The position numbers were made by a program, and so were the translations under genes. A stretch of DNA of 64,000 nt from Ypsolopha sequella (lineage: Eukaryota; Arthropoda; Insecta; Lepidoptera; Ypsolophidae). The stretch spans positions 20,749,045 to 20,813,044 of the forward strand of contig OW203990.1 in assembly GCA_934047225.1 (NCBI GenBank). The letters run 5' to 3'. Below are positions 3,916-63,800 of the stretch, piece by piece (position 1 is the stretch's first letter; the number at the start of each line of letters is the position of its first letter). The notes under the pieces were generated by a model. That model made no database searches. It had not been told where the DNA came from and worked only from the letters and a program-made list of their open reading frames with translations.

Positions 3916-5084
3916 TATAGATAGATAAAAGGTAGAAAATATCCTTGTGACTTTTGACTGCTACCTAAGGTTGTTGCAATTTAAAAGAAGACGTATTGAC
4001 TATAGATTATAGAATATGTATGCTTCAGTGGTATCGCCAAATAGAGATCTAGATGAGATAGAGTGCAAGTAGAAGATTGAGGTTGACTTTTGCATTTTGT
4101 ATGAAACCATAGGTATGTAGGATGTCTCAATCCAACGTTAAGTTATTTCCAAAATATATCTGAAATTAAACGTTCTGCATACTCATTTATCAAAGTATTG
4201 AACTGACATCTATAAAACATTCTTTCGCACGTATCGACCTCTATGATTACCAACAAATCTAACCTAACTCCCCCATGGATCGGTTGGTGGATCCAAGGTA
4301 GACCCAACCCACACTTATCCTCAGATACCTACAAATTACCTACGTACACGTACCCTGGATACGTACAAATTAAGTGTACGTATGTACCTTGGCTTGTACA
4401 TTCGCTGACTTATTATTTATTTACATTCTCGCTGTAACGTGTAATTTAAACGATGTAGCTGTGTGAATCCGTATGTGAAGTGAACGTAGGGTGTAATTTC
4501 TCGTGTATTGGCCAGCAGCAACGGCATTGGTTCTGATTATAGAGGTTTTCTCACTCCATGGTTCCAGTGCTATCTTTTTTTCCATTTTTTTATCTTTATG
4601 AACTGGTTTAAGAAACAACTTATGCATTATACTGAATATGTTTATTTTATTTTTATGGATATGTTTATTTATTATGGAGAATTTATCATTAATAGAATTG
4701 ATTAACATTTTCAATTAACATACTAGAGAGGGAACAATGATCATGGTATCACAAAATATGATATTTTCTAAACATGATATATTTCTTCAATATCACCAGT
4801 GTTTGCGAGAAAAGTATCTCGCGTGACGAAGAAGACCGACTCCGCCGAGGCAGAGAATATAAAGTATTTGGCCGAGGCCTGAGAGTTGTTTGTAACCTGT
4901 CATTAAGCTATGATATGCCGCCGGCTGCCTGACTCCATGCGCGCACGCATCCATCTCCGGCCTTTACGGGGCGTACGAGTACAGTACCATTATCTAGAGT
5001 GTTGCGAATTAGTTGTTAGAATCAATGATCTGTAAGACCCTACTCTGTAAATATACTAGGATAGTGAGTAACAACTCTTTTAAA
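3916..5084. other. Non-coding, no recognised gene
   Basis: AT-rich sequence with TACGTA-rich low-complexity patches near 4330-4390. The frames in 4243-4714 on the two strands overlap each other and resemble nothing known. A mixed-composition block at 4800-4980 contains GATAT and GCGC-rich segments but no gene. Confidence 0.45.
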
Positions 5085-5298
5085 TGTCGTGGGCAGATCA
5101 TAGAATTGGACAGATCGTAAAGTATGAAATTGAAAATCTTTCACCAAAAGTCAAAAATAGGTGCGATGATGTGCGGAGCGAGGAGGAGCGTGTTATGTTA
5201 ATAAATTTGGGGAACCGAGTGAAGCTGAGCGGAGTGAAGCGAACCCCCTAGTTTTAACAGAAATATAATATGCCCAATTCTACAATGTGCTGACGACA
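5085..5298. mobile_element. Inverted-repeat MITE, family B copy 1
   Basis: The left arm (GTCGTGGGCAGATCATAGAATTG) starts near 5086 and has a degenerate complement near 5270-5297 (CCCAATTCTACAATGTGCTGACGAC, reading outward). The interior contains the phrase AAAAATAGGTGCGATGATG followed by purine-rich GAGCGGAGTGAAGCGA. The same interior is seen at 54858-55119, and a fragment at about 19819-19935. Non-coding and non-autonomous. Confidence 0.6.
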
Positions 5299-5410
5299 TA
5301 CATATGTAGACATAGTCAGGGAGCTAGGCTGGGAATGATAGCATGTGTGTAATTACCAATACGGTTGGAAAAAAATTGGGTATTTTTATAACAAATTACC
5401 AAGTTTTAAT

Positions 5411-5960
5411 AATGGCTGCAAAGGCACTATTGGCGGTTCATAATGGAGTGTTGGCTTCTACACTTATGTATGGTAGTGAATGTTAGGTACGGCAAGATAA
5501 AGATCAAAGTAGAGTGAATGCAGTGGAAATGCGTTCCTTAAGAAGTATGTATTAACATTGAAAGACAGAGTGAAAAATATCGACATACGGGATCGTTGCG
5601 GCCTGAAAAAAGATGAGGTGATTAGAATAGAAAAAGGGATGCTCCGGTGGTTTGGACATATAGAGAAGATGAATGAAAGCAGGGTGACGAAAGAAAATTA
5701 TAGTGTACAAGTGGAAGGTACAGCTTAACCAGGCCACCCTAAAAGGACGTATGCTGACCAAATTGGCGACAGACTGAAGAAGGGTAATGTCAAAAGTACC
5801 CAGAATAGAAGAGCTTGTATGACTAGATTGATGGATTTGGAAGAGGCGAAAGAGGTGTGTCTGGATCGTAGTAGATGGAAATCTGTAGTTTGCCTACCCC
5901 TCTGGGAGACATGCGTAAGTAAGTATATGTATGTACGACGTACGTATGTATGTAAGAATA
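5411..5960 (+). mobile_element. LINE (RTE-like) reverse transcriptase C-terminal region, degenerate
   Basis: Translation of the + strand gives recognisable non-LTR reverse transcriptase 3' domain phrases in order: GVLASTLMYGSE, KDRVKNIDIRDRCGLKKDEV, MLRWFGHIEKMNESRVTKE, then a region around GTAPGHPKRTY broken by a stop, and RRACMTRLMDLEEAKEVC. The order and spacing match the thumb and post-RT region of RTE/BovB-like LINEs. Frameshifts and stops show that it is dead. It may be of the same family as the - strand fragment at 39290-40110. Confidence 0.65.
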
Positions 5961-9135: not shown

Positions 9136-10969
9136 TCGAACGGCGCCTTAACAACTATTTACTCATTCATCTGTGGATGCATAATTAGAGGGTTCGGAAG
9201 TTTACTTTCATTAACGCTTATGATCCTATTACTGTTTCTTTTATGGGTTTCAATGGCTAGGTTATTGTTTCGCTTAACGTGTGTTACTTGCGTGGGAAAT
9301 TTTATTAACATTACATTTTATTATACTAACTTAATTTGATTCATTTTACAATGTCCCGAATGTCCTCTTAAAAGAATATTTAATACGGAATAAAGAAACA
9401 AAAGGGAATACAAAAGACAAATCGGAAAACGCTTGCCTCCAACAATCGCTACAAACGGCACAGAAAGAGAACTTTAAAAAATAAACGCCGAAAAAATCTT
9501 GAAAAGTCACGGACGCTTAACTTTCTTCCCCTGTTTTATTTTTTGTACCCTCTTCTGTACTTTATTTCTATCTTTTACGCACCCGTTGTTTAAGATAGGG
9601 GTTTCTCTTTCTATTTAACTGATAAGTTACTTTTTTAAACTGCAGGGAAATCGAAGTTGTTTTCTGAGCAAAATTAAAAGCTGGCAGTCGCAGACGTAGG
9701 TCATAAAAAGAAAATATGGGGCCCGTTAATCAGACATCTTGTTTTATTTGTTTTGAGCTTTCTTTCATGTTAGTTTAATAACTTAATACTGCGTTACGGC
9801 TCTTTATTTATGGATTGCAATTACATACAACCACATTTCAATTTATTAACACGTATCTAGCAACAGTTTCTTTTTGTAATACTTACTTATCTAACTAATA
9901 TTTCTTCAATTGTTCTTGATAAATCTTGACAGTTGAAACTGTTAAATAATGTATTTTTAAGAGGCTATGCGAATTATATTTTTGTCAATGTCACTCTAAG
10001 CGATAAAACGCGCAGTGCGAGAGGGGCGGATTTAGGGTAAAAGGGAAAAAAGTTGGTTTTATATTTTTATAAAAAAAAACTAAACTAGCTTGTAAAATTT
10101 CCAAAATCAAAAATCTAGATATTGTTGAACCCCATCTAATAAAATATGTTTGAGTTCTGTACATGGCTGCTATTCGTTAAACGAGGAGAAAAAGTGTGTT
10201 AGAAGACCTCATTTCAACAATTATTTCTATTGAGGAAAGTTTATCCAAAAACGTTTGCCAAAAATAAAACCCTAGATTATATGGTCAAAATGCATATACC
10301 AGAAACTGATTATAATTTTCCGTGTATTTAATGAAATACACAGAATAGAAACACCCGTAATTTTTTAAAATATCGCCTTAAGTAAAGCGTAGTTACATTA
10401 TTCCGATGCACAAATAAACGAAGACGTCGAACGTTGCGTGATTGTGTGTCGTGTAGTTCTAATATAACTGCAAATAAAAGTAAAGCTGCCACCACTCCAT
10501 ACAAAAAATTTGGATAAAAGGTACCAAGATTAACGTATTAGACGTTTCAGACGACTTAGCCGGAACAATGTGGTTCTACCTTTATCAACTTGCCAATGTT
10601 GTCAATACCGAACATCAAATTTCTTTTTATAATTTAATATCGTATTGGAATTACAGAACATATAAAAGTTAATTAGTTATTTATTACAACTGTTGTCTAC
10701 GGAACCCTTCATCAGTAAGCTTAGCACATACTCTTCGTTGATTTTTATTTGCAAAGCGTAGAAATCGACGCAACATTGCGCCAACATCGGTGGGGGCAAA
10801 TGTGCCAGTCACTATGACGAAAGTAAGGTTTGCATACTGCATTGTAAAAAGCTATTATTTTGATTCCAATTCATAGACAATAAAAAGTGTCATTATCGCT
10901 AAAATAATAGAAAAACATGATATACCATCGTTCACCTCGTAATTTGGATCCAATATTCTTTATCTACTC

Positions 10970-11437
10970 CCATACTGCAATAAGGCAATTGCAACATCAA
11001 AAGCAGTTTCATAAGTACCTAGATTGTTTATCCGATGTTATAATATTACATTATAACACCGTGATTCTGCGCTGCGATTGGCCCAATTTATTATAAAACC
11101 GCTAGAGAGCCAATCAAGAACAGAGACGAGAAATAAGTACCGACCTTATTTCTTAAGCCACGCCCGTTTATCCTGATTGGCCTTCAAGCTGCATTACCGA
11201 GACGACGCACCCGAGGTTTATGAACGATTGTTCTACTTCTTATTTTTCGTGAAATTTTTAGTTGAAAATATTATAAATAAAGACGATATTTTTAATGGTC
11301 GTAGATAAAGTATTGTGTGCAAATGAACATAATTAGATATTGGGACACTCGTGCAAAATTATTACGAAACTCACTTCGTTCGTTTCGTAAACAAGCACTG
11401 TGCCCCAGTGTCTCGAGCTATGTTATAGTTGCACAAA
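10970..11437. repeat. Dispersed repeat family C, copy 1
   Basis: About 470 bp nearly parallel to 44277-44756, in the same orientation. Both copies begin TATCTACTCCCATACT, pass through GCGCTG..ATTGGCCCAATTTA, CGCTAGAGAGCCAATCAA, AAGCCACGCCC and AATGGTCGTAGAT, and end near TGTTA.AGTTGCACAAA. No ORF and no clear terminal inverted repeat were found, so the class is unknown. Two CCAAT-type boxes (ATTGGC, GCCAAT) occur in it. Confidence 0.8.
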
Positions 11438-21240: not shown

Positions 21241-21508
21241 ACATACAACGTGAAATTTAAGTAATTTTGTTAACGAAAACTGGTGAGAGTACTTGCCCAT
21301 ATAAACAACTTTTACTATGGAGCCAACCCTGAAATCGTAAAAAAAAATATCAGCTGTTCCATAGAAAAGTTAAATACCTACTCGACACAAATGTGCTGAT
21401 TCTTTTTTCACGATTTCAGGGTTGGCTTCATAGTCAAAGTTGTTCCTATGGACGAGTACTATCACCAGTTTTCGTTTACAAAATGACTTAAATTTCACGT
21501 TGTATATG
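21241..21508. mobile_element. Long imperfect palindrome (foldback MITE)
   Basis: The left arm ACAACGTGAAATTTAAGTAA ... GAAAACTGGTGA ... GGAGCCAACCCTGAAATCGT (21246-21340) is mirrored by ACGATTTCAGGGTTGGCTTC ... TCACCAGTTTTCG ... ACTTAAATTTCACGTTGT (21410-21504). A further copy of GGAGCCAACCCTGAAATCGT lies at 21588, outside the palindrome. Non-coding. Confidence 0.75.
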
Positions 21509-28493: not shown

Positions 28494-30134
28494 AAAATGG
28501 CCTACCACGACGACTTCGGACGGCATACACTAACACTCAGTTGCTGGAGCTGGAGAAGGAGTTCCACTTCAACAAGTACTTATGTCGTCCACGAAGGATC
28601 GAGATCGCCGCCTCACTGGACCTCACTGAAAGACAAGTACGATTCTAGATCTACGTAATACAAGATCAGTAAAAATAAACTTATATCTTGGAAAACGTAA
28701 CATAACTTACAAATATTGCCTCTCTTGTTCCAGGTAAAGGTCTGGTTTCAAAACAGACGAATGAAACACAAACGACAAACGCTAACCAAGAGTGAAGACG
28801 GCGACGATAAAGATTCAACCACATCTGAAGGTGGAAAAAGTTCCAAGACCGGACTCGACAAATTCCTCGACGACGACGGTCCTTTGTCTGGCAAGAAAAG
28901 CTGCCAGGGATGTGAACTACCACCGGGAGCCCTATGTTCACCAGCCGAGGACCTGCCAGAGCTAGCGTCTCGAACACGGAACAACAATACACCCAGCGCT
29001 ACAAACAATAACAGCTTCGCGAGTGACGGAGCCTCCAGTGTCGCCTCTTCTTCCTCATTAGACAAGCTAGCAGAGGAAGACTCCCGAGATGCTCATCCAC
29101 CGGTCGTCACCGCCGTCACTGCACCCAGAAGTCTCGCAAAGAGAATCAAACAGGAAGCAAGGAAACGTTCACCGTCTTTGGACACCACGCAATGCAAAGT
29201 CTCCCCGTCATCTTCCAAAGACGGCCTCGGAGCGATAGCTGGCTTACCAGACGGTGCTAAATATTCTTCAGTGAATCTGACTCCATCAACGACACCAGGC
29301 ACCCCGTCTAGCTTACACCAGAGCCCACTCGGGCATTACCCACGACCATCACCACCTAATGCGCCACCTGGACCTCCCCATCCTCAAGCTGTACCCAACG
29401 CGATGCCACCTTACGTAATTAGAGGAAACGCACCGCCCGGCCAATTCGTTCCGCATCCAGACTTCCGGATGGATTCCAAACAATTCGTAGGAAAGCTTGC
29501 CCAATATCCTCAGGGCAACAGGGGCTACGAAGGCTATACTCCTCCGGTTCAAGGAACCGATCAGCACTCTTACGCTCGGAATCAGCCGCACGCAAGAGCT
29601 GATGGCTCTCCGGTGACGCGACCCACTAACGGTATTGGCGCGAGGCAAGCATACCCACAAGATATGTATCAGAATTACGGCTATCCGGCATATAATAAAG
29701 ATCAAGTTGGTTACGGGCATCCAGGTTTCGATCAATCTCAAGGGTACCCAGGCGAGCACATGGCGTATCCGAACAGCCACTACGGATATCACTACCACGA
29801 AGGAGCTCAGCATGATCACGTACACAACTACTACTCCAGTGACGGGCAGAAGAATGCCCATGGAGCTGAGTACGCGAAGAACGCGTATTATGATGCTAAT
29901 GGTGGTTATAGTGGACAGCAGCCAGCGGGTTACAGTGGCGGACCTGCACAGCCGGCGGCAGCAGGAGAGGGGTATACGGGCAGCGCGGAGTGTGGGGAGG
30001 GCTACGGTTCGTTCCAGCAGTTCTACGAGGCGACGCACGCGGCCCCCGCCGGAGACAACTCCAACTCCTCATCTGACTTCCACTTCCTGAGCAACCTCGC
30101 TAACGACTTCGCACCCGAGTACTACACCATTTGA
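28494..30134 (+). CDS. pb: proboscipedia (Hox2-type homeodomain protein), last two coding exons
   Basis: Exon 28494-28636 ends at CAA|gtacga, and exon 28734-30134 starts after ttccag|GTA; the junction is phase 0. The first gives [20 protein letters not shown] through to LDLTERQ, the second opens [16 protein letters not shown], so the homeobox is split between homeodomain residues 44 and 45. Recognition helix residues Q50, N51, R53 and K55 are all present. [15 protein letters not shown] with [14 protein letters not shown] is diagnostic of pb/Hox2. The 466-residue last exon is low complexity (Ser/Asp-rich, then Pro-, Tyr-, Gly- and His-rich) and ends in [11 protein letters not shown], a conserved-looking tail. 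In insects pb specifies mouthpart appendages as a nuclear transcription factor. The first codon of exon 28494 is split (phase: 2 nt), so an upstream exon (expected to carry YPWM) is required; it was not found in the window and presumably lies beyond the left edge or in unrecognised DNA. Confidence 0.96.
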
Positions 30135-31044: not shown

Positions 31045-31185
31045 GGTGTCGATTCGGTAATACATATTTGACAGGACTAAACTTAATTTAAGCGTTCTGT
31101 CCTTGTCTTTTCGATACAGAACGAAAAGGACAGAACACTTAAATTAAGTTTAGTCCTGTCAAATATGTAACACCGATTCGACACC
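31045..31185. mobile_element. Inverted-repeat MITE
   Basis: GGTGTCGATTCGGT..TACATATTTGACAGGACTAA..CTTAATTTAAG.GTTCTGTCCTT is mirrored almost fully by AAGGACAGAAC.CTTAAATTAAG..AGTCCTGTCAAATATGTA..ACCGATTCGACACC. The loop is about 15 bases. The element is essentially one perfect hairpin with no coding capacity. Confidence 0.8.
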
Positions 31186-33560: not shown

Positions 33561-34231
33561 CCTGTGCCGCCGGTGTCCAGGCACAGGGCGTAGATTCTGG
33601 GGGGCGCAAGAATGGCCAGATCAGGCAGGACTATTATTTTTTCGGTTTTCTCCTGATAAGTTCCCGCTGCGCCCCTAGTGCTCGGTTCCAACACATACGT
33701 ACCTACATGCCAGTATCATCAAAAACGTATATTAAATTAGACAAAACAACGCGCTCATTTTTTTTGCAGCGAGCGTATAATAGGCGAAGGGTCCCTTAAC
33801 ATCAGATGGCTCATCTGCTTGTTTGCCCGCATCAGTTCTTAAAATAAATGGATTTTTCTTCCAAAATATTAGATAATTGGTCCACCAACACCAAGTTCCT
33901 TGTGCTTTATTTTATCACCCTGAATGAAATAAAGTAGGCCTATAGCAATGGCGTGCACAGAACTTTTTGCTGGAAAAGCAAGCAATTGGTCAAGAATAAC
34001 AATAAAAAAAATATGAAAAAATTTTAATAAAGTGATATTTAAATTTTTTCATATTTTTTTTATTGTTGTTCTTGCCCAATTGCTTGCTTTTCCAGTAAAA
34101 AGTTCTGTGCACGCCACTGGCCTATAGGTAGATAGCATTGCTCCAGGGTACCTACCTATAATATCTAAAAAACACAAGGGCGCAGTTATAGAAGCTCGCA
34201 CAGGGCGCAGAAAGGGCTATTTACGGCACTG
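33561..34231. mobile_element. Insertion splitting the mariner relic
   Basis: The junction is defined by the interrupted coding phrase: GDESWIYAY ends on the right at about 34232-34250, and AYDPDSKQQ resumes on the left at 33560. CATAGG flanks both sides (33555-33560 and 34232-34237), consistent with a target duplication. The ends resemble each other inverted (CCTGTGCCG at left; GTTTACGGCACTG-like at right). The interior contains GGGGGGCGC and AGGGCGCAG segments and a nested hAT MITE. The class is uncertain, with hAT-like ends. Confidence 0.6.
33938..34127. mobile_element. hAT-type MITE, CAGTGGCGTGCACAG family, copy 1
   Basis: The 174-bp element (33946-34119) has ends CAATGGCGTGCACAGAAC and CTGTGCACGCCACTG inverted, flanked by a perfect 8-bp duplication GCCTATAG (33938-33945 and 34120-34127). 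Arms run through AGCAATTGG..CAAGAA.AACAATAAAAAAAATATG almost to the centre. It is nested within the 33561-34231 insertion. A sister copy is at 63531-63792. Confidence 0.93.
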
Positions 34232-37834: not shown

Positions 37835-40800
37835 TTATGAAGCGCCAGCTTTCTGCGCCTGAGCTTGGGCTTGGTATTTCATCTCCATCATCATACAGAT
37901 AGCTTCACGGACTTTGGACTTCTCTATTCCTATCACTTGGATCTTTTCCATTTGTTCCGTCACAAACTGGACTTTTCTCTTAAAGTAGTCTTTAGCGCCA
38001 TCTATATTCTGAAAATATAGCATTACATTGAAATGGTTGAATAAATTAAAATATTAATAAAGATATATTATGATAATAAATATTTTTACTTAATAAAAGC
38101 TTTTTTACCGTTTTATTATATATATATATACACAGATTATGGTAGAAATTAAATAAAAAAGAAAATTTTCGATTTATATTTCGACCCACTTGGGATCGTC
38201 GCCAGTCGAATATGGAATAATATCATAAATAAAATAGAGTTAACAATAGATTGACAAACTTAACCTATTTTCTTAACCTATTTAATTTACTTTTTTGCTC
38301 TCATCTGGTGAAGGTAGAGAAGGGTCTGTCTGTCGGTCAGTGTTGTCTGTTTAGTCCGGCTCCGTAGTGGGCACCAAGTGACCAAATGTAAGACGATTCC
38401 CAAGTGGGTCGACAAATATATAGAAAATTTTCTTTTTTATTTAATTTCTACCATAATATTCGTAAGAATCTGTATATACAAGGTGACTTTTTGATCATCG
38501 TCCAAATTCATACTGGTGGCTTGGTAAGTGATCAGTATCATGGATCAATAACAATTTTGGCGAAATTCGTAAAATGAAATTTTGACTCCCCATAGTGATT
38601 CACTCGGGGCTGGAACTGAATTTCTATGGGAAGCCGAAATTTCATTTTACGAATTTCACAAAAATTGTTATTGATCCAAGATACTGATCACTTATCAAGC
38701 CTCCAGTATGAATTTGGACGATGATCAAAAAGTCACCTTGTATATAATAAAGATATATTATATACATGAAAACTCTTTTTGAGCTTTATTTATTTGTAAG
38801 GGATAGTAGATAATTATAAAAACAATAGAACATATATTTAAACTTGATATATTGGATGCGAACATATGAAATTGAAGAAATTTTCTAGATTTGTAAGTTC
38901 ATAATTCCTGTAAATCAATAACTATTTCCATTATTTGTTTTTTATTTGAAAATTGATTTCAATGTTTTACACCTACTTATTAAATTTTGTTTTTATTGTC
39001 AGTTTAATAACTAAAATTAAATCTTCAGAAAGAGTTCATCCTAAATGTCATCCATTTCCATTATAAGATTTGTAATATTTTTTTAGAGCTGACACTTTTC
39101 AAAAATAAAATGATTGTTAGTATTAGCTCACTGTTGTCTCATTCTTACACAAAAAAAAACTGGATTTGTCATTCCTACAAAAAATGCAAAAATTTTAGTG
39201 CTGAAAATTGAGTTTTTTACAAAATGTATTCATTGTACTTCTGTATCACTTGTTTCACAGTGTGTATGTGGTTGTTTTTACTAAAATTCTTCCTAAACCC
39301 TGCTTGCTTTATTGGCTAGCCCTCGTCCAGTGTTTTTGATATTCTTTTTAGTATCACTTTTGCAAACACTTTGTACACATTTGACATAAGGATTATCGGC
39401 CGATAGTTATCAATCTCGTCTTTAGGTCTTTTTTGTGTAAAAGTATAATGTGAGATTCGCCCCACTGCACTGTTTTGGAACAATCTCTGTGCGCAAGATG
39501 TAGCTGAATAGCGCTTCTAAAATTGGACTTAGTGGACTTAAGACTATTGTTCCTCTCATGAGTACATTTGTAATTTTGTCTGGGCGTGGTGCTTTATCCA
39601 GCTTTTGGGAGTTCACTGCTTTCTCTACCTCTGCTGGAAGAATATCAGGTACTGTGTCATTTTCACTTTGCGCCTTGAATTGATTTATCTGGTCTTCAAT
39701 CATCACACAATTATTGGAATACAATGAGCGGTAGTAGTCTGTGGCTAGCTTGTTGATTTTTTTGCGTTTTGTACTACTGCTAGTTTGGTTCTTCTTTTTA
39801 TTTTGTGGATATCCATTTTTTCTTTTTTCTTTTAATTCTGTCAGAACTTTTCTTATGCCTCCTGTTCTTGCTATATGTTTCCCTGGAGTTTGTACTAGTT
39901 TCTTGATTTTTTATCTTTTTTCATGCTTTCTCTTATTTGTTTGCTGAGTTCTAAAATCTTTTTTATTGTTATTATCTTCTTTCTTTCTTCTAGGAAATTC
40001 ATAGTTCTGTCACTGAACTTGTCATTTTGTTTGCTGTATTAGTTTTTGCTAATTTGTTTAGACTATATTCGGCCCTTTTATATTTTTCTGACAGATGTAG
40101 TTCAGATTTGGCATCACAGTTTTTAGTGTTGGTGGGTTAAATTGTGAAATATATGGTTATTTCTTGTAAACGCATTGAAGTGTATTTTCAAGTAATCCTA
40201 TAATCAGCACCATAACATTAACTGATTGCCGCAATCTCAAGTTATGTGCTGTCATCCATTGAGGAATTCTATGGTAATAAAGCCAGGATCGAAGGTTAGA
40301 TGGGTATTCTGATAATTTCCAAGTAAAATCCTGTAATCAGCACCCTAACACGGAGATTACTGCAATTTCGAGTGTGCTCTCATTTGTTGAGGAGTTCTAT
40401 GGTAATAAGGCCTGGATCGAAGGTCAGGTGTAGGAATTACAATTTAGAAGTAATACACTACAATACACATCCTAGTACAAAGTGATTGCCTTAATCTCGA
40501 ATGGTATGCTGTCATTTTCTGAGGAGTTCCACAGCCTATCACTGAAGACCTTCATCAGATCATGACTAATCTCAAAACAGGACTCGTAGCACTCTTCCAA
40601 ACCAAAAATGAATCATTCAAATTGGTTCTGAAATGGAGTAAGATAAGCTATGGAGTAATATACCCGAAAAAAGAAAAAAATACAGTGAGAACCTACACCT
40701 TTTTTGAAGTTGGTTAGAAAAGTTAAAGTGACAACGATTTTTGCAAGTTTTTCTGTATATTTATGGGATGAGCTGCCAGATGGAATGAGAATGAGAATGG

Positions 40801-44276: not shown

Positions 44277-44756
44277 TTTATCTACTCCCATACTACAATA
44301 AGGTAATTGCATCATCAGAATCAGTTTTATAAGTACCTATACTGTTTATCTGATAATATTACATTATGACACCGTGATTCCGCGCTGCTATTGGCCCAAT
44401 TTACTATAACACCGCTAGAGAGCCAATCAACAACAGCGACGAGAAATAAGTCCCGACCTTATTTCTCAAGCCACGCCCACTTTATCCTAGTTGCTTCTAA
44501 TTGGTACTCAAGGCAGCATTACCGGTCGATGAACTCGGGGTTCATGAACGAGTGTTCTTCTCATTTTTCGTGAAATTGTTAGTTGAAAATATGATTAAAA
44601 TACGATATTTTTGATGGTCGTAGATTAAGTATTGTGTCCAACTGAACATAAATAGACATTTCGACACTTGTGCAAAACTATTACGAAACTCACTTATTTC
44701 GTTTCGTTAATAAGCACTCGTGTCCCAATGACTTGAATTATGTTACAGTTGCACAA
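44277..44756. repeat. Dispersed repeat family C, copy 2
   Basis: Second copy of the unit at 10970-11437, in the same orientation, colinear over about 470 bp with small indels. It sits 287 bases left of the P-like element. Confidence 0.8.
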
Positions 44757-45034
44757 AATACTATGATAATCTATGTAGTTTTCTAACTGTACAACAAGGT
44801 ATTATTAAGGCTTTTTTTTATCCAAATCGATATCGATAAAGTCTTCAAACCGGTAGTCCGATACATGCCTAGTTGCAAGCGTTTGAAAGATAGGGCTGTA
44901 GCCGGCTTGAAATCGACGTACTGATAAAAATACTGTCTTCTTGTTTTTTCATACTGAGAGTTGTATATGTGAAAGTAGCATAGCTTTACCATCCTAGGTT
45001 TCTGCTTAATTAGATCTTATCTATTGGTTTATTG

Positions 45035-47061
45035 GTCTGAGGCTCAGAATAAGGAATACAAATAGAAACCTGGCTAAAATAAGAACTGGGCATGAGCCAT
45101 TGTACTCATCTAACGTAAATTACTCCTGTGTACGAGTGAATGAAACGACGGACCGCACTTACTTTATATTTTTTCCTGGTGTGTCACTAGATTGAACCAA
45201 ACAAATGTCAGATGGATGTAATTTGGATGTATTTTAAAAATTATAATACAATCAAATTAAATATGTCTCATCATTGTATCGTTGTGTTGTAATATCGTTC
45301 GTAGCGTGCATCATATCTTAATTTGGTGGCATCGAAATGTCTAATGCATTTTGCGAAAGTTTACAGCTTCACCGAGAGAAATTAAATATTTTTGTGCTCT
45401 TCCTCTCAAAATTCGTGAAAGTGTGATTTATTATTGTTTGTGTTGATTGTTTTTTTAACATTGTAATAAAATGTCTTGTGCGATTGAAGGCTGTAAATCG
45501 CATACAGGAAGAAAAGAAAACAACAATGAAGCAATATCATTTCATCGGTGAGTTCTGATAGTTTTTATGTTAATAAGTTGCAGGATCATACCTAAAACTC
45601 AGTAACAATAATAGTAGTTCTTGTAAATTATACTCGTGTTCAATTCTACACCGATATTTGCCTGTTTTATATAGATTTTCTGCAGACTAGTAGAGGTTAT
45701 GTTTTTTCGCATAGTGATGTACTAAAGTCCGTGTCGCAAACTATCGAACATTGGTTCACGTGGCAGCCGTGCATAAAGGATGAAGCCGCAGATTAATTGC
45801 AGCGCGAGTTAAAAGAAAAATAATGCCGAATAAATATTGCCATATCTTTTTGTTACAGATTTCCAAAAAGGGAAGAATTAAAAAGTGGATGGCTTAGACG
45901 AATAATTAGACCCAATTGGCCAATTAAAAAAAGCACTCATATTTGTTCGAAACACTTTACGCCGGATTCTTTTGGACCAAACGAAAATTTAACATGGAGA
46001 CGGTTAAAAGCAGATGCTTTAGCGACGTTATATTTACCAGATACAGACACATTGGTAACCTTTTAATAATTATGTATAATTGCATTATCAATCTTGTTTG
46101 TAGGTACGTGCTTGTACTATACTATAGTATATTAACTCGATAATTTTTCAATTTTAGGCAAGAGAACCAGTACCTATGGATGTTTGTGGTGTAGAAAAGT
46201 GCATACTTCTATGTTCGCAAATCGTTCTGAAAGGCCTGTTCAGAACTTGTACGTTACTTCCGTGATCGACTTCACGAAGAAATTCCGCAGATCAAGACAT
46301 TTTCGTACTTAGTGGTTGACAATAAAAGTACTTTGATAGGGTGGTTCTTTCGTGAAATGAATTTTGGGAATGCTTATTGACTTGAACTGCACATAATTTG
46401 ATTTCTTATTACAGGTTATAAGGTATTTTAATCGTTCATTATTTGTTATCAGTTATTATTCAAGATTAGTTGATGTTTATTTGATATAATAATAAAAAAA
46501 ATTAAATTACCTCTGTAGTAATTGCGCTGTCATCGCTCATCATTTTTGTACTAGAAACAAGCACAATTTTGGACTTAACTTATGTACCTACTTGCCTACG
46601 ATATAGTAATTTGTTCTTAATAAAAAATATTATGCTAAAGAAAGATATCCTTTTATTAATTCCTTATTTACACAATATAACATGTGTCCCACTGGGGTAG
46701 ACAGAGACCACTTTGCTATTAATTCTCTTGGCCTCCTTCCAAAGCAAGAGGATGTCACCAGAAAGGTCGGTGCCTCCTGCATTCTCTTTTTTTTCACACT
46801 TTGATACGATATAATGTGTGGTAAGCAGATTGGTCGTGGTTCATTTCGATTTGGTTTATTTATCGTAGTCAAAAATCGACATTGTTACATCACTAGCAAA
46901 GCAACGAACTAGTGACAACCTACCTAATTAAGAAAAAACTAATACATATCCATCTCTCTCTAACGCACTAGAATGTCGTAAGAAAATCAAGGATAGGTGT
47001 TTTTCTCCGCGTATTATTTTAGCCAGGCTTCTATTTGTATTCCTTATTCTGAGGTCTGAGG
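45035..47061. mobile_element. P-element-like transposable element with THAP gene
   Basis: The element 45043-47053 (2011 bp) has 40-bp terminal inverted repeats (45043-45082 and 47014-47053) starting CTCAGAATAAGGAATAC with one mismatch, and a perfect 8-bp duplication GTCTGAGG (45035-45042 and 47054-47061). A 9-bp subterminal inverted repeat TGTCACTAG lies 139 bases from the left end (45182-45190), and its complement 136 bases from the right end (46909-46917). Drosophila P elements have 8-bp duplications, 31-bp ends and 11-bp internal repeats about 125 bases from each end. With the THAP-domain gene inside (45471-46265), the P superfamily is the best fit. No transposase catalytic region is visible, so it is non-autonomous. 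hAT also makes 8-bp duplications, but hAT proteins do not carry THAP fingers. Confidence 0.85.
45471..46265 (+). CDS. THAP zinc-finger protein within the P-like element (predicted 126 aa)
   Basis: Exons 45471-45547, 45859-46054 and 46158-46265 join in frame (phases 2 and 0; GT/AG borders cg|gtgagt, acag|attt, ttg|gtaacc, tttag|gcaag). The peptide opens MSCAIEGCKSHTGRKENN, then SFHR.FPKREELKSGWLRRI, THICSKHFTPDSFGPN and WRRLKADALATLYLP. The THAP signature C3-x4-C8-x46-C55-x2-H58 is complete, with the invariant Pro (P28), Trp (W37) and HF after the His. The finger fills about residues 1-75; the last 36 residues (exon 3) are not recognised and this exon is the weakest call. THAP fingers bind DNA; in P elements this domain binds the subterminal sites. 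A THAP-only product from a deleted P-like element recalls the truncated repressor-type P proteins. Expression is unknown. Alternative: exon 2 could read on to a stop at 46070 without splicing. Confidence 0.7.
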
Positions 47062-47640: not shown

Positions 47641-47982
47641 AAAAATGAGATAATAATAATAATAACTTTATTGACCAAAAAGTTGCAAAAAATAAGTCAC
47701 AGAGTTTTGAACATTTAAAATTTCATCATAGTAAGTAGTTAGACAAATATTTAGTCACTTAGTTAAACTAAAAATATGAGCTATACAAATATAAATCAAA
47801 TCTTTGACACCTGAGCTAAATCGAAAGATCTGTCAGGTGACAATTTATTATCACCTCTGTAAAGATGGAATGACAACAGGTAAACTGATTTATAATTTAA
47901 ATGAAATGTAAATCTTAATCTAAATTACAAAGTCATAAAAAAGAGAACAAAAGTAATTATAAAAATTAATAATTATACTATT
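47641..47982 (-). repeat. Possible LINE 3' terminus
   Basis: An AATAATAATAATAACTTTATTGACC start on + reads on - as GGTCAATAAAGTTATT followed by ATT repeats. This is a common 3' end of lepidopteran non-LTR elements. No coding remnant was identified on this strand. Confidence 0.35.
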
Positions 47983-49170
47983 ATGAACAAAAATCAAAGC
48001 AACAAAACACAAAAGATTGCATTTGACTCTGCTACGTCATGGTTTGATTCTTATCTCCATGGACGCCAGCAGCGCATTCGTGTCAATGACACATTCTCCA
48101 TTTGGTGTGACGTGACTGCTGGAGTTCCACAAGGCGGAGTTATTTTCCCTTTGCTTTTCTCTGTCTTCATAAATACTCTTGTCTCTGTTGTGAACTTCAG
48201 CTCTTTTCACTTACTGCCGATGACTTGCACCTGTACTTATCCTGCAAACAAGATTCACTGTCTAATACTATTGAGACGATGATCGTTGATCTTGACTCTT
48301 TTAATCTATGGACTGAACGGTATGGGCTCTTAGTCAATTCAGCCAAGACGCAAGTCATGGTTTTAGGAAGTGGAGCTCTTGTCCATAAACTTGACCTTGA
48401 TACCTTGCCCTCGGTTCATCTGAATAATATACCTATACCTTACTGTATCAAAGTAAAAAACCTGGGTTTGCATATTCAGAATACAAGGTCCTGGGATTTA
48501 CACGTCTCAGAAACAAGTAGAAAAATATTTGCATCTATGCATGCACCTAAACGCTCGCAAAAGTTCCTGCCATACTCTGTCAAAGTTACTCTTGTCAATT
48601 CCTTGTGCATTAGGGATTATTCTGGATTATGCAGATGTCTGCTATCCCGACCTCACTGAGGAACTTCTGAATAAGCTTGACCGTCTTCTCAACGTATGCA
48701 TCCGCTATATATTCGGGCTGCGTAAGTATGATCACATCTCTGAATTCCGCGCCAAACGTGTAAATTGGCTTAACATCAGGTACCGGAGATTCCCACGTTC
48801 TTACTTTCTCATATGGTATTCTCCATAATCCCAATTCCCCACTGTGGAGAATGAGTAATATTACAACCTGAATTATGTAGGCTTTATTGTGCTAAAATCC
48901 TAGTAATGTAATGACAATGAGTGACATCTAATCAAACTGACAATTTACCATAAATACGAGTACGTAGTATTTACCATAAGTACGACACCCACAATATCTC
49001 AAAGTATGTTTTGTACCCCTCTTGTCCCTCGATCGTCTTCAACGACCCAGCAAAGCCTGGCTTAGACATGTAAGTTTTGTACACGTCGCCCACCTCTCAC
49101 GTGGCCTGATGTTTGGCTCGGACGTATGGTTGGATTTTGAGAGGCTTATAATTATTATTATTGTTATCAA
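47983..49170 (+). mobile_element. LINE (Jockey/CR1-type) reverse transcriptase remnant
   Basis: The + strand, in changing frames, yields SWFDSYLHGRQQRIRVNDTF, TAGVPQGGVIFPLLFSVFIN (RT motif GVPQGS..GPLLF), then TADDLHLYLSCKQ (the catalytic YADD with Y replaced or shifted), LDSFNLWTERYGLLVNSAKT, KNLGLHIQNTRSWDLHVSE, then LPYSVKVTLVNSL, DYADVCYPDLTEELLNKLDR and LLNVCIRYIFGLRKYDHISE. The order fits the RT palm, thumb and C-terminal region. Several frame changes show decay. A further tail RPSKAWLRHVSFVHVAHLSR at 49050-49110 and an ATT-rich end near 49150 probably belong to it. Confidence 0.88.
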
Positions 49171-49401: not shown

Positions 49402-52400
49402 ATGTCGATCACGACTTTGGAAACTACGGAAAATTTCGAGAACTCCATCAGGTAACCTACGTAACCTTTCCACATTGAACCAATGTCACTAAATTCCTTA
49501 CATGATTTACGTAAATTGAAAAGGTCTAGCTAGACTAGGAGCGTACAGTCGATAACCCTATGTATCGTGTAACAAGATGGGACAAATTTGTAGTTCTATA
49601 GAAAATAAACTACATCAAAATAAATAGGGTTGGTTGGCGCAACCTGGAGCATTTTGTTTTTGCTGACGGCACAAAGCCCCTGCCAACCCTGTTTATTTAA
49701 TTTTGTTTCATACACATCTCCAAATTGGTCACATCTTGTTACTCAATACATAGGGTAACCCACTGTATACCCATAGTCTAGTCCATTCGATCTTCAACTT
49801 TCACATTATCCCTCATTCATTATAGTACAGCCTCATCAGTTTTGTAGTTATTTACCCTGCGGTCCGAAATAGAATTACAATGGATCATAAGCCATTCACT
49901 TCATACTTTCGTAATCGATTTTAGCGATATAATTCTATTTCGGAATGCAGGGTTAGTGATTGACACAAATTATGGGCTAAGGTAAAACAACAAAGAGGCA
50001 AATAGGTTCAATTATTTTTTGGTCAGTGTCAAGGGGCAGCAAAAAGTGTACTTAATAACCTAACAGCTCAGCCAATCTGCCTCACATCTATATTCCCTTA
50101 GTGCCCCTAATCAACACCTTAACCTTTTTATTTATCAAACTTTGTTAAATATTACTATCACGTAATCATGCTAACATTGATATAATAGGTCCAGCATTAT
50201 CAAAACAGAAAGTGGTGTAAATGGATCTCAATGCTAATACAATTACATTATCATCTTACCTTTGTAACACAAGGAAAATTTTCTAACATTAAGCTGTAGA
50301 ATTATAAAATTTTTATAACAATCGATTTCTGGCAGAATCTATCCTCCTGCCTCTTCGGGAGTTAAGAAAACTACAAGACTATTCTTTATATTCAGTTAAA
50401 ATAGTAACAAGGGACTGCACAATGCTAAAATTCAGTCCTGCTCTAATGCGTTTGTTTTTAAACTCTATCCTGCTCTAATCAGATGCAGCGCACGCAAAAC
50501 TTCAGTTATTTTGAAATCGCGGCTCCATTAGGACATTAACCATAATTTCTTTGTGTAATAAAGATGTTTTTTTCTAGTTAGTATCTGCATGTGTTGGTTT
50601 TGTTTCAATCGGTTTTGAAACATAAAAACTGAATCGCTTTTTTCATGAAATTAATGCTTTTTTAAAAGTAATGTAATTAATAGAAGATTGAAAGTATGTT
50701 TATTTATAAAGTGTAATTAATAATTATCTTGAGTCAAAAAACACACCTTATTTTTTTCAAATTTTTACTATCTACATTGACAGAAAGCCCCTTAGGGAGT
50801 GTATTGTTAATTAGAGCTTTATATAATTTGATTTAAAATATTTGTGTATCTTGATTAGAGATGAAACGGATAGTGATTTGGCCGGATACCGGATACCGGA
50901 TATCCGGCGAGGCCCTAGGCCGGATAGCCGGATATCCGGCGGCCGGATATCCGGCTCAAGATATGCGTTTCGCACTAATTGAGCAAGTCTTAACATTACG
51001 CACCAAGGTGCGTGCGGGTGCAACTGGGCGAGATTATTTGTGTATTTTCTAAATCACAATCACAATCATACAAATGCTGGTCTGCAAACGCGAAACAATT
51101 TCCGATCCTAACAAAATTCGTAAATATGTATCTTTTGTCTCCTTGCGGTGTATACTGTATATAAATGGACAGGTATATTTAAATGAAACCGCGTAATCTA
51201 CTGTTCATACTGAACAAATTTCCCAAAGTAACATATTGAAAAAATAAATTGAACCTGCCCACCCAATGCCCTTTCAAAATTCACAGTAGGTTTTAAAATG
51301 AGTAACATGAAAATGAGTAACATGAATGAGAAACATGAAAATATTTTTTCATTTCCACAAATATGTTTCTTTAGAAAAATTGTTCAGTATGATTCTTAGA
51401 CCATGTGTTTTTTATTAAAAGATACCTGTTGAATTACATCCGGTATATTGTGAGAGCAAAAGAAGCTGGTGTAATGTATGAAGAAAAGCACAAACGTTAA
51501 TTCCCAACAATTGCTGTACAGCTTGTCTTTATCTACCATAGCTCAACTCTATTCACTTTATGTATTAGAATTTAGATTATTGAATCATTGATACAATCAA
51601 TTTATTTTGTGATTTAACCGACTTTTTGTATGCTGAGTTAAGTATCCGGTATCCGGCCGGATACTGGCTACTATCCGGCCGGATACCGGATACCAAAAAT
51701 GTGGCCGGATAGGCCGGATACCGGATAGTAACCGGATATCCGTTTCATCTCTAATCTTGATACATTACTTTTCTGAGTGTTGATGATGATGTTGCGGTGG
51801 GACGCCTGCTGGGCTCAGGTGGATGGTCGCCTCTCTATTTGAAGCTACTCCATCCAATTCCCATTGCTTAGAGCTTTGGTATCCTAATGTCCCAGGGGCA
51901 TTCCCTCCTCAAATCTTCCGCTTCTTTCTGAGTGTTATTAGGGGCTATTTACTAGCAGTCTAAATACAGTCCTTGTGGTTAACACATCGTTGGCATACAC
52001 AACAACCACACAACATAAAAGGTTTATAATATTATTAAAACTCGCGTGAGCTGACGTACTAAATTATTATTACATACAGCTTGAACACTCACGTGTGATT
52101 GTCGTTGACTACATGCCAACCGTTTCACCGATACAGTTTCGGCATTATGAAGGCGAGTGTCGTTCTTCTTAGGACGATGACGCGGCGTTCACCGTGTGCT
52201 GCGTCGAACACCGTGTGCCGCGTTGAACACCGTGTGCCGCGTCGAACACCGTCGTTGTCGCCGGGCTGCCAGTGCCCGTTTGAGAACAACGGTGAATGCC
52301 TAAGAACAGTCGTCTTGATAATGCCGAAATTGTATCAGTGAAACGGTTGGCATATAGTCAACAACTCACACGTGAGTGTTCAAGCCGTATGTAATAATAA

Positions 52401-55400
52401 TAAAAGGTTTAGTTTGCTGATGGAACACTCGAACAGTTAACAAAATGCAAAAGTTCAAACAAAACAATCAATTTTCAGGTCTCCAAATCTCGCAGTTGTT
52501 CATTTCTCAGCCGGCTGGGCAGCGCAATGTGGCCAAGTGACAGACGTCCTCAAAGAGCTTGCAAAACTTCCAGAAATACAAGCTGGCGGAGCTACATTCT
52601 GCATTTGTGATGCTGAAAAACTTTCAGAAACCTCCCTGAAATATAAGGTGAATAGAATTCAAAACAAAATAAATTAATTTAAAATTATTTTTACTTTTTA
52701 ATTTACAGACAAGGCTCATTACATGCTTATAACTCTTTTTAATTTTCAACGCTTTTTGATTTGTATATTTTAAGATGTGTGTTTTGTGTTACAAGTTCAT
52801 TGAAATAACTCTATTTACTTTAAACAATGTTTTGAAGATTTCGCTTGGTAATTGAAACTTTTGACTGATTTTCCAAAAAATGGTCTATGAAATCAAAAAG
52901 TAAAATATTGTATTTTATTTTAGGTTGATTCGGTGCCTACTGTAATTTTATTCAAAAATGGAAACCAAGTAGACAGAGTAGATGGCGCAGATGCATCTCA
53001 GATCTCATCCAAAGTCAAAAGTCACTGCCTTGGTAAAGGTGTTGCAATAGACGCATCGGCACAACAACCATTAGAAGAAAGACTGAAACAGTTAATCAAT
53101 AGGCACAATGTGATGGTTTTCATGAAAGGAAACAGAGACCAGCCGAGATGTGGATTCAGCAGGACCCTTATTCAAATTCTCAATGGATTAGGGTAGGTTT
53201 TATTTATACCCTTGTCAATAGGTACTCATAAATTAAGCTATAGGTATAATAAAATAAATCTTGAATCTCTTGGTTATTTTAGCAACTTCAAGGCAAAAAC
53301 ATTTCCTACAACTAAAAACGTGCCTTTGTTTGATATTGTTTTAAAATTATCGATTTTACGGGTTAAAGATTAAGAAGGTTAAATGTCAAGCTTATCCATA
53401 ACAAACTTCACATTATCCTCGACATGAATTCATAGATTTAAAAAAAACGGGCCAAGTGCGTGTCGGGCCACGCGCAGTGTAGGGTTCCGTAGTTGCCCTG
53501 CACGATATGCGGACTTCTTCTCCAAGTACATTTTATAAGTTTGTCGACTAATACGCTCTTCTAGTACGCTCGGTAGTTGCTCTTCCCAAAAACGGCCCAT
53601 ACATTTTGTTCCTGCTGATGCGAATCGCCCCGTGTTTAGAGGGGACTAAAATTTTGGCGTGATCTGTACTCGTTAACTTGTAAAGCCTACTTAGCTGTGA
53701 TAGTTTTCCTTTTAATTTCGTTATGTATACTACTGCCGTGATTTTTTTCACGTCTCCAAATACAACGGTTTCGCTAGCAGGGGAGGGACACTTGACTCTA
53801 ACAAAAATTAACACTTTTAAGCTTAATATTTCGCAAACGGATCCCTGGATCGAAAAATGGTCTTCACACACCCCCAATATTTTTAAATTACCTATCCAAT
53901 GACACCCCACACTAGGGGATAGACGAGAAAAAAAAACATCCCCACTTTACGTGTAGGGGAGGTAACCTAAAAATAAAAAACATTTTCAAAATTCTACTGT
54001 ACCACTTTATCGGCGTGATAAATATGTATACCCATGCCAAATTACAGCTTTCTAATACTAATAGTCTCTAAGCTAAGCCGCGGACAGACAGACAGACAGA
54101 CATGGCGCAACTATAAGGGTTCCTTGTTGTTGACTGTGGAACCCTAAAAACCGGCCAAGTGCAATTGTACCCAAGCGCCCAGGAACATTTGTTTATTTAA
54201 ATGACTCATATTTACCTAATTATTAAAGTTATACATTGATCAACGTGTGCTCACTATCACAAGTATCTTTAAATTGTGCCCAAAAATTTGCCTAAATATT
54301 GTTAAATTATAAATTCAAAAATCCAAAATCCAAGCCAAAAATAATCATATGCACCAGAGACTGAAAAGGGCAAAAGGCTCATGATTGGTTCGTACTGTTG
54401 TCATGCGACGCTAGGCCAGCCGTGGTTGGCCGACTAAAAGACACAGTGAATGCCGTGCAGGAGCCGTGTTCAACACACTTCATCTTGGGGCATTTCAGCT
54501 CTAACCAGACTTCTATGTTTTTTTCGTTCACTGCTCCTGCCGTCGCTCCTATGTTTTATTTTAATTACCGAGTTAATTCATGACTTTTGACGATAATGAG
54601 TTCGTCTCCTGCAGTGAGATATCAGTATATTTTTATGTTAACTGTTAAAAACACAATGAACAACAATTTTTGAATTTTTGAAATGATCCTATTATTACCG
54701 AAGTTAGCGATATCAATATTTATCACTTTTAGTACGCCATCGTTTACGTTGACGTCACGATCTATGCCGTTAAGAGGCCCCTTTACACCTCTGATTGTGA
54801 AGTCAACTGCTTATTTTCTTTATAAGTATTATCAAGCGACATCTAACTACGTATCTACGTCGTGACCATATCGTAAAATTGTCAATTTCATGATCAGTTT
54901 GGGCAGATCGTAAAGTATGAAATCAAAAATCCTTCATCAAAAGTTAAAAATAGGTGCGACGACGAGCGAAGCGAAGCGGAACGAGAAGGAGCGTGTTAGG
55001 TTTACCATCTAAGATAAAATAAGGAGCCGAGCGAAGCGAGGTGACCCTCCCAATTTTAACAGAAATACGATATGGCCAACCAGATCATGAAATGGTCAAT
55101 TCTACGATATGGCCACAACATCTATCAAAAGGCAAAATTTGATGAAACACCATCATATTAGCTGTCAGGATATCGTGAATATTGCCTCGTTTTTACGCCA
55201 CCTTTAGCAAGTTGTATACCTACTTTTTATCTATACTGGAAATAAAAAAGAGAAACACAGTGTGTCCCTCGTAAGAGTGCACATCCGAAAAAGGGTGAAA
55301 CTAGATCCAAACATATCGACAAAAACAAAGAAAATTTTATTTTTTATTTTTTTTTTAATCTTGAAAAAATGCTCCGCAGTGCCTTTTGTTAACCGCTCAT

Positions 55401-60059: not shown

Positions 60060-60480
60060 CAGGGTAGGCCACTTCAGGGGTAGAACGCTGGCCTCTCAAT
60101 CTTGAGATCCAGGTTCAATCCGCGGTTGGGCATGCACCAATGAGTTTTTCGGAATTTACATAATGCGCATCGTATTTGCTTATAGGTAAGTACTTCCCAC
60201 TTTCTGAACGGTAAAGGAAAACATAGTGAGGAAACCCGTATGTCCTAAAAATCGTCGGTGTTACTACAAAACGGTGTTTAACTTTAGACAGTGTTTAAAT
60301 CTGTTGTTGTCACCTTTTGTTCCATATTGTAAAAAGTGACAGCAACAGATTTAAACACTGTCTAAAGTTAAACATCGTTTAAACGCCCTTTTGTAGTAAC
60401 ACAGTGTGTGTTTGTGCCCAAAGTACTTACGGCGATAGGGCTCACCTCCCACCACGTTGGGACGTAATATTTGTAGGTGA
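60060..60480 (+). repeat. tRNA-derived SINE interrupted by a palindromic MITE
   Basis: The head GGTAGAACGCTGGCCTCTCA..ATCTTGAGATCC..GGTTCAATCCGCGG has A- and B-box spacing of a tRNA. It is followed by the SINE body GGGCATGCACCAATGAG, TTCGGAATTTACATAATG and GGTAAAGGAAAACATAGTG. The body resumes after an inserted hairpin (60259-60402) with TTTGTGCCCAAAGTACTTAC and GGGCTCACCTCCCACCACG. This class is common in noctuoid moths. Confidence 0.7.
60259..60402. mobile_element. Palindromic MITE inserted in the SINE
   Basis: GTGTTACTACAAAACGGTGT..TTAACTTTAGACAGTGTTTAAA..TCTGTTG is mirrored by CAACAGATTTAAACACTGTC..TAAAGTTAAACATCG..TTTTGTAGTAACAC. Arms of about 55-60 bases; loop about 35 bases. Non-coding. 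Confidence 0.75.
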
Positions 60481-61240: not shown

Positions 61241-61512
61241 GGGCGGATTCATAAACTAGGGTCGTGACGCGGGTTCTTATGCTATCTCCGTCGCACTTGT
61301 TGGAAATTGTATACGCTATCCTGCTGTCAGTGTTGGAACCAGATGAAATTGTTAATATATGAACGGCTAGCAGCATATCAGACCCCCGTTCATTAATTAA
61401 CACTTTCGTCAGGTTCCAACACTGACAGCAGGATAGCGTATATAATTTTCAACGCGTGCGACAGAAATAGCAATAGAACCCGTGTCGCGACCCCTAGTTT
61501 ATGAACGCGCCC
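61240..61512. mobile_element. Inverted-repeat MITE family D, complete copy
   Basis: GGGGCGGATTCATAAACTAG..GGTCG.GACGCGGGTTCT is mirrored by AGAACCCGTGTCGCGACCCC..TAGTTTATGAACGCGCCC. Inner arms ATACGCTATCCTGCTGTCAG..TGTTGGAACC are mirrored by GGTTCCAACACTGACAGCAGG..ATAGCGTAT. The right half also occurs at 41629-41763, and the TGTCAGTGTTGGAACCTGAC word occurs again at 61595-61614. Confidence 0.8.
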
Positions 61513-63522: not shown

Positions 63523-63800
63523 CCACCACACAGTGGCGTGCACAGAACTTTTTTCCGGAAAAGCAATCAGAAGGTCAAGTACGACAATAAAAAAAATATG
63601 AAAAAATTTAAATAACACTTTGAAAAAAAAAAGTTTGTATGACAATTTTCACTCTAGGGTAGGCAGTGCCTACCCTGGCGTCATACAAACTTTTTTTTTT
63701 CAAAGTGTTATTTAATTTTTTTCATATTTTTTTTATTGTCGTACTTGACCTTCTGATTGCTTTTCCGGAAAAAAGTTCTGTGCACGCCACTGCCACCACA
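63523..63800. mobile_element. hAT-type MITE, CAGTGGCGTGCACAG family, copy 2
   Basis: The element 63531-63792 (262 bp) is flanked by a perfect 8-bp duplication CCACCACA (63523-63530 and 63793-63800). The termini CAGTGGCGTGCACAGAAC are inverted at both ends. Arms are nearly perfect for about 110 bases (through AAAAGCAATCAGAAGGTCAA, ATAAAAAAAATATGAAAAAA and AATAACACTTTG). The loop contains CTAGGGTAGGCAGTGCCTACC. It is inserted in the intron of the coiled-coil gene. Confidence 0.95.

Follow-up and report, generated by a model that had tools for sequence, protein, structure and literature searches.

A 2-kb internally deleted P-superfamily transposon with an open THAP frame in Ypsolopha sequella and its 6.3-kb full-length relative

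Transposons accompanied by their own deletion derivatives are known classically from the P elements. A 2-kb element with a THAP gene was analysed in a 64-kb stretch of the Ypsolopha sequella genome (64,000 nucleotides on contig C7, called the window here), and the question raised by the locus is whether such derivatives spread as encoders of a repressor or merely as good substrates. The element at 45043-47053 (2,011 bp) is a non-autonomous, internally deleted DNA transposon of the P superfamily, and its features are summarized in Table 1.

Table 1. Features of the element and their coordinates in the window (L055, locus of the full-length relative; TSD, target-site duplication; TIR, terminal inverted repeat)
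Feature	Position	Strand	Basis
Left TSD GTCTGAGG	45035..45042	.	sequence
Left TIR, 40 bp	45043..45082	+	arm comparison, shuffles, genome count of first 25 bp
Left subterminal inverted repeat TGTCACTAG	45182..45190	+	sequence, shuffles, 36 copies
Exon 1, THAP domain start (zinc ligands C3, C8)	45471..45547	+	homologous to L055:1154-1230
Exon 2, remaining THAP domain (C55, H58); A81 for the AVPTIF proline	45859..46054	+	Pfam, alignment
Predicted exon 3, 35 codons and stop	46158..46265	+	splice model, L055 comparison
Junction of the ~4.1-kb internal deletion	46196..46200	.	between L055:1880 and L055:5989
AATAAA, possible polyadenylation signal (also at 46321 and 46619)	46491..46496	+	motif search only
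Second deletion junction (192 bp)	46541..46548	.	copy alignment
Right subterminal inverted repeat TGTCACTAG	46909..46917	-	sequence, shuffles, 36 copies
Right TIR, 40 bp; one mismatch to the left	47014..47053	-	arm comparison, shuffles, copy alignment
Right TSD GTCTGAGG	47054..47061	.	sequence

The two flanking 8-bp copies of GTCTGAGG matched perfectly and the TIR arms were complementary at 39 of 40 bp. The first 25 bp of the TIR, with up to 3 mismatches, occurred at two places in the window, which were the two ends, while the maximum count in 100 dinucleotide shuffles was 0; no further copy of the element was found inside the 64-kb window. The single mismatch between the arms was common to most family copies in a set of 36, so it is not a fresh mutation of the window copy and the dating of the copy from this mismatch was rejected. 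Counted from the left end, the 9-bp TGTCACTAG begins at element position 140, and counted from the right end at 137. A symmetric subterminal repeat appeared by chance in 23 of 2000 shuffles for the 40-250 bp zone and in 148 of 2000 for the 40-1000 zone, so the pair alone is modest evidence, little beyond chance. The repeat was found at the expected site in 34 of the 36 copies on the left and in all 36 on the right, and the full-length relative has it as well, at 142 (left) and 137 (right). Exact 24- and 23-bp TIR strings had no match in viral or prokaryote contigs, the element had no match among phages and Rfam at gathering thresholds gave none on the window. The start string of the TIR returned no relevant paper from the literature, the one match being an unrelated virus paper.

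The THAP gene has GT-AG introns and a predicted spliced product of 126 aa with the four zinc ligands. Exon 2 alone matched the Pfam THAP domain (E=5.5e-10) and the spliced product matched human THAP1 (1.6e-10). THAP was the only domain found; a catalytic domain was detected in none of the six frames of the element. The third exon is of mixed origin: in the full-length element its first ~40 nt belong to an alternative exon, and the remainder lies past the transposase stop codon (L055:5912). Against 5.8 billion proteins the 126-aa product gave one candidate and none significant, under length limits that exclude full-length transposases. The THAP exon gave five pattern matches and no relative in viral contigs, and the exon 3 region gave nothing significant among solved structures (E 0.74 and worse).

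The proline of the AVPTIF motif is required for DNA binding by THAP1. It is replaced by alanine in 32 of the 36 copies, the window copy among them, and is kept in L030, L034, L040, L041 and the full-length element; a script called proline in 13 of 15 further loci, the other two giving no call. The derivative product also misses a basic stretch of the full-length protein beginning at residue 135 (HEKKISRLQKELERVR...), which by eye looks like a coiled coil. The THAP sites of Drosophila P and Galileo are placed 41-80 bp from the ends in the account of PMC3688188, and by this analogy binding of the THAP finger to the subterminal TGTCACTAG is not favoured. The window gene is expressible in principle, and its product may have a weak effect.

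The genome was searched with the P-transposase domain PF21787, which gave at least 150 places above the cut-off (150 of 320 candidates were scored and all passed), many with frames of 700-886 aa. These places fall into several families, including some equal-scoring sets such as five with 824-aa frames at 148.3 bits, and suggest several recently active P families in the genome. Twelve of the places (L043-L054) were compared with the window element. DNA was shared with L043 and L044 only, at a stretch that is the intron 2/exon 3 boundary of the window gene.

The full-length relative was found around L043 as an element of 6,290 bp (C3:18975224-18981513, or L055:725-7014), with matching TIRs having 1-3 differences from the left TIR of the window and with its own 8-bp duplication, GATACTAC. 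The window element is collinear with it in three blocks of 92-94% identity, element positions 1-1156 falling at the left end and both 1155-1505 and 1501-2011 at the right end. The predicted gene (L055 exons 1154-1230, 1541-1736 and 3504-5912) encodes 893 aa with no stop and carries THAP, Tnp_P_element, RNaseH_N, GBD, RNaseH_C and THAP9_C domains. Its comparison with Drosophila P transposase 6P5A (E 1.1e-25) placed D299, D390 and E626, which we take to be the catalytic triad, on identical residues. The relative thus has the transposase traits of the P superfamily (THAP, P HTH, split RNase H, GTP-binding insertion), and the 8-bp duplication and the TIR with subterminal inverted repeats are present as well. 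The window element is placed in the P superfamily by this full-length partner with matching ends.

These results are in accordance with the structural part of the original prediction, which had described 40-bp TIRs with one mismatch, a perfect 8-bp duplication, a 9-bp subterminal repeat, and a THAP finger gene over three exons in an element of P type with no visible catalytic domain. The repeat was retained in the relative and in nearly all 36 copies, the gene is backed by its domain match and GT-AG introns and the missing catalytic domain by the six-frame search, and the P type by the relative with its P transposase. A partner of the P/THAP9 type rather than hAT had been anticipated, and the P type was found.

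The search with the transposase exon (all 12 candidates scored, 13 matches) gave long matches only on C3 (100%) and C9 (99%), the others being 50-319 bases at 69-99% identity. The C9 copy has no 5' part within 1.3 kb upstream of the homology and its frame from the exon ATG breaks after 424 codons. With the C9 frame broken and the rest short, the C3 copy is the one structurally complete copy seen in the assembly. The 2.0-kb copies differ from it by ~4-5%, so the element that actually supplied transposase for their burst may no longer exist, may be missing from the assembly or may be polymorphic.

Downstream of exon 2 and upstream of the transposase exon, the full-length element holds three tandem units of ~285 bp (L055:1737-2592), each with a 3' splice site resembling that of intron 2 and with a terminal exon of 168 nt (55 codons and stop). 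The terminal exon is open in all three units and in frame with THAP, giving a predicted THAP isoform of 146 aa. The differences between the units (1N:0S, 11N:2S and 10N:2S) revealed no sign of constraint, and a regulated isoform is possible. Drosophila P employs intron retention, whereas an alternative terminal exon is predicted here. The deletion derivatives are without most of this exon. That the isoform would be a built-in repressor switch operated by alternative splicing, and the spread of the derivatives an escape from it, is considered unlikely.

The copies of the family were collected from the whole assembly (866.8 Mb, 151 contigs). The element search gave 3,090 first-look candidates, and among the 40 that were scored the matches above 1.4 kb had 94-100% identity. 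Forty-two loci were fetched, yielding 36 distinct copies with both ends; L018, L032, L035, L036 and L038 were left out as the second end was not recognisable, and L042 (equal to L008) and the second copy in L041 (equal to L004) as repeats. Other copies with these ends and 8-bp duplications, which had also been expected, do exist: perfect duplications flank 35 of the 36 copies and all 35 differ, L025 showing none and L034 being scored on the outer ends of a tandem pair. The distance to the majority sequence was at most 1.0% in 28 of the 36 copies and 1.2-3.9% in the others, and the pairwise divergence had a mean of 1.1% and a maximum of 2.5% (32 copies; L034, L039, L040 and L041 left out).

The terminal 25 bp with up to 3 mismatches occurred 1,523 times forward and 1,513 times reverse genome-wide, against 0 and 0 for the reversed-pattern control. 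The first 100 listed end matches were all exact and all on contig C1, and 84 of these ends paired to give 42 elements of less than 12 kb. Of these, 16 measure 2.06-2.25 kb, 11 measure 2.7-2.85 kb, 2 measure 1.84 kb and 13 have other sizes, 4 of which exceed 6 kb. If C1 is typical, extrapolation gives well over a thousand two-ended elements genome-wide. From the 42 pairs, 15 further loci on C1 were selected for their length rather than randomly, comprising one 1.8-kb, six 2.2-kb, four 2.8-kb and four 4.9-6.8-kb elements. Perfect duplications were present in 14 of them, and no transposase beyond THAP was detected in the 15 at E 1e-4.

Tandem or nested pairs were observed at L041 (C15:4815034-4819436), where the second copy lies in or beside the target duplication of the first, at L034 (C13:23353495-23357776) and at L062 (C1:33425776-33432649), which contains two copies. 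A 277-bp palindrome is inserted at element position ~1610 of L037, an extra 511-bp stretch was seen at ~78 in L026 and a 98-bp foldback at ~148 in L033; these extra stretches are probably other elements.

The target sites, pooled over both strands, showed G1/C8 at 57% and T2/A7 at 46%, with mostly T at position -3. Palindromic pairs numbered 53 of 140, a count reached or exceeded in 10 of 5000 random-flank draws and, as a weaker result, in 155 of 5000 half-site shuffles. The GT....AC pattern resembles the Drosophila P motif ATRGTCCGGACWAT, which contains GT....AC in the description of PMC10299278, and the Galileo target GTATTAC given in PMC4168063, whereas position -3 is T here and A in Drosophila.

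The junction of the ~4.1-kb deletion was present in all 36 best-scoring copies and all 15 further loci (51/51), while four older 2.2-kb copies carry 192 bp at the second junction. In the tree of the left 1.16 kb, rooted with L055, these four are the earliest branches, with the 2.0-kb copies nested. The junctions and the tree together point to the order of full-length element, 4.1-kb deletion, 2.2- and 2.8-kb forms, 192-bp deletion and 2.0-kb burst.

The history that may be proposed begins with a ~4.1-kb internal deletion that would have fused the THAP exons to the 3' non-coding end of the full-length element, the 192-bp deletion coming second. The derivative kept both ends and, judging from its structure, would have been cut and pasted in trans by a P-type transposase, leaving the 8-bp duplications. 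It would have spread first as the older 2.2- and 2.8-kb forms, and a recent wave of 2.0-kb copies (~0.5% from the majority sequence) would have placed the window copy ~15 kb downstream of a proboscipedia-like exon. The THAP frame is most likely open through the youth of the copy, its product being a by-product with little or no function. If transposition is damped at all, well over 1,000 end pairs competing for scarce transposase would be a likelier cause than a THAP repressor. The probability that the window element is such a deleted P derivative of the 6.3-kb element, passively moved in trans, is put at roughly 93%.

The selection acting on the THAP frame was analysed by counting N and S changes. 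The THAP exons of the 36 copies gave 23N:5S private and 11N:1S shared changes (sites 217:56; ratios 1.19 and 2.84), and exon 3 gave 13N:3S and 6N:3S (ratios 1.43 and 0.66). No purifying selection was detected on the THAP exons of the 36 copies, the pooled 34N:6S giving p=0.56 against expectation. The whole 126-aa frame with its splice dinucleotides is intact in 26 of the 36 copies and the THAP part in 33. Broken alleles occurred in pairs, namely K49* in L033 and L034, E94* in L005 and L024, and a missing intron-1 acceptor in both L019 and L020. Of the 15 further loci, judged on frames only, 12 have a stop or frameshift, one and the same codon-43 stop recurring in 8 of these, which indicates that ORF-dead copies spread widely; L061, one of the three open loci, has lost the zinc ligand C8.

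The comparison of the young majority sequence with L055 gave 13N:8S in the THAP exons (ratio ~0.42, p=0.058), and the contrast with 34N:6S gave p=0.057. This non-significant lean hints, without proof, at constraint, which is assigned to the full-length elements. A simulated copy free of constraint and carrying 1.25% substitutions per site kept the 126-codon frame and splice sites with a probability of 0.39, any indel being counted as fatal. Selection as the cause of the open frame was rejected on the neutral N:S of the 36 copies and the common broken alleles. The original prediction had offered either selection on a THAP-only protein or its recent origin. The recent origin holds, and selection is unsupported in view of the same N:S data and broken alleles and also of the window copy lacking the AVPTIF proline and the coiled-coil-like stretch.

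One alternative is a repressor of the KP kind. The KP protein of 207 aa reportedly dimerises, as Lee et al. are said to have found in 1996, whereas the product here is THAP plus 35 aa with the AVPTIF proline lost. KP and other deleted P elements of Drosophila melanogaster are described with P ends, an 8-bp TSD, the catalytic part deleted and a truncated N-terminal product (PMC7776569, PMC10299278), and in its ends, duplication, internal deletion and truncated N-terminal product KP is the same as the window element. A KP-like role would mean that the 126-aa protein (or one of ~94 aa from intron retention) binds the ends, represses transposition and thereby aided spread or retention. PMC7776569 names the 66-kDa protein and KP (207 aa) among the truncated P products that repress in Drosophila, 26 of the 36 copies keep the whole frame (33 the THAP part), and the 13N:8S of the young sequence against the full-length THAP leans to constraint (p=0.058). 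However, purifying selection is missing (private 23N:5S, shared 11N:1S, p=0.56), 12 of 15 further loci are broken, 8 with the codon-43 stop, and 32 of 36 copies have A81 in place of the AVPTIF proline. An internal deletion with the N-terminal THAP frame kept, which is a KP-type trait, is present, whereas a retained dimerisation region, another such trait, is absent, the exon with the basic coiled-coil-like stretch (judged by eye; from residue 135) having been deleted. The KP-like role is thus held to be improbable. Compared with KP, the Ypsolopha sequella family stands at about 3,000 ends genome-wide.

Two further readings carry hardly any weight. The open frame and its position ~15 kb from the proboscipedia-like exon could point to the host domesticating the THAP protein of the window copy as a factor of its own, within or close to the Hox complex, but near-identical frames occur in dozens of copies scattered over many contigs, the frame shows no constraint and no Hox-specific feature was seen. 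Capture of a THAP domain by an element of hAT or Mutator type is just as implausible. The TIR has no CA start, 8-bp duplications are also typical of hAT, whose targets can resemble palindromic GT....AC, and the original prediction had itself named a hAT partner as the outcome speaking against it. Barring a second family with these ends, the hAT partner was nevertheless rejected, as the transposase encoded by the full-length relative is of P type, with no hAT domain listed in it by Pfam, and the ends of the two elements match.

The deleted P derivative has close parallels outside Drosophila melanogaster. The TIR of Drosophila P begins with CA, and here the TIR begins with CTCAG and not with CA as in Drosophila P and zebrafish Pdre2; the CA start is not treated as defining for the P superfamily. 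The zebrafish Pdre elements, described with THAP9-type full-length and deleted copies, TIRs, subterminal repeats and 8-bp TSDs, have the same layout of a full-length THAP9-type element with multiple internally deleted copies, at least 50 P-homologous sequences being reported there; the Pdre TIR has 13 bp (CATACCTGTCAAC) compared to 40 bp here (CTCAGAATAAGG), and that of Pdre2 is given as beginning with CA (PMC10983969). AgaP of Anopheles gambiae, reported as three subfamilies of 876-895 aa with THAP, perfect 8-bp TSDs and non-autonomous relatives, is alike in transposase size and in these traits. Its TIR is 27-31 bp against 40 bp here, and the centres of the Anopheles P-MITEs are described as unrelated to P, whereas the centre here is made of the element's own THAP exons (PMC1562414).

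A protein search with the full-length product gave 84 P-type proteins among 7,993 scored candidates, several from Lepidoptera and uncharacterised, and the closest match of any source had 69% identity over 87% of the query. Proteins of Parnassius mnemosyne, Euphydryas editha, Scirpophaga incertulas, Chilo suppressalis and Spodoptera exigua have P transposase domains at 36-44% identity, those of Euphydryas, Scirpophaga and Chilo also having THAP. These lepidopteran proteins, compared by protein alone, are alike in the transposase domains. P elements are listed among the transposons of Helicoverpa armigera in PMC7764229, and the matches listed for P elements in Lepidoptera included no paper on the present family.

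The genomic setting of the element was also inspected. A long exon (28701-30134) lying ~15 kb upstream of the element contains the last part of a homeodomain, matched in Pfam at E 6e-4 without reaching the curated cut-off, and by its sequence resembles proboscipedia. By this proboscipedia-like exon the window is in or beside the Hox complex, and nothing seen in it points to a Hox-specific role of the element. Transposons can accumulate in part of the lepidopteran Hox cluster, as PMC9977156 describes for LINEs in the Shx region. Reverse-transcriptase-like (LINE) fragments were recognised by eye at 47905-48828 (+), starting ~850 bp right of the element, and at 39422-39910 (-); in Pfam, part of the former matched RVT_1 weakly (E 0.058) and the latter gave nothing. 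A direct repeat of 480 bp, 83.5% identical, occurs at 10959-11437 and 44277-44757, the latter copy ending ~280 bp left of the element. A palindromic (foldback) element with arms 91% alike and ends CAGTGGCGTGCAC lies at 63531-63792 between 8-bp direct repeats CCACCACA, with related arms at 33939-34128. Further palindromic stretches (38473-38746, 61241-61512, 21243-21505, 52063-52401, 31045-31185 and 60269-60380) are likely MITEs of other families.

On its sequence, the element would work like an internally deleted P element, a kind already known, with a repressor role being possible. The chief interest lies in the natural contrast between one structurally complete parent and about 3,000 ends. 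With open and dead THAP frames both at hand in the family, the old question of whether derivatives spread as repressor-encoders or merely as good substrates becomes directly testable, and the present comparison favours spread as good substrates over spread through encoded repressors.
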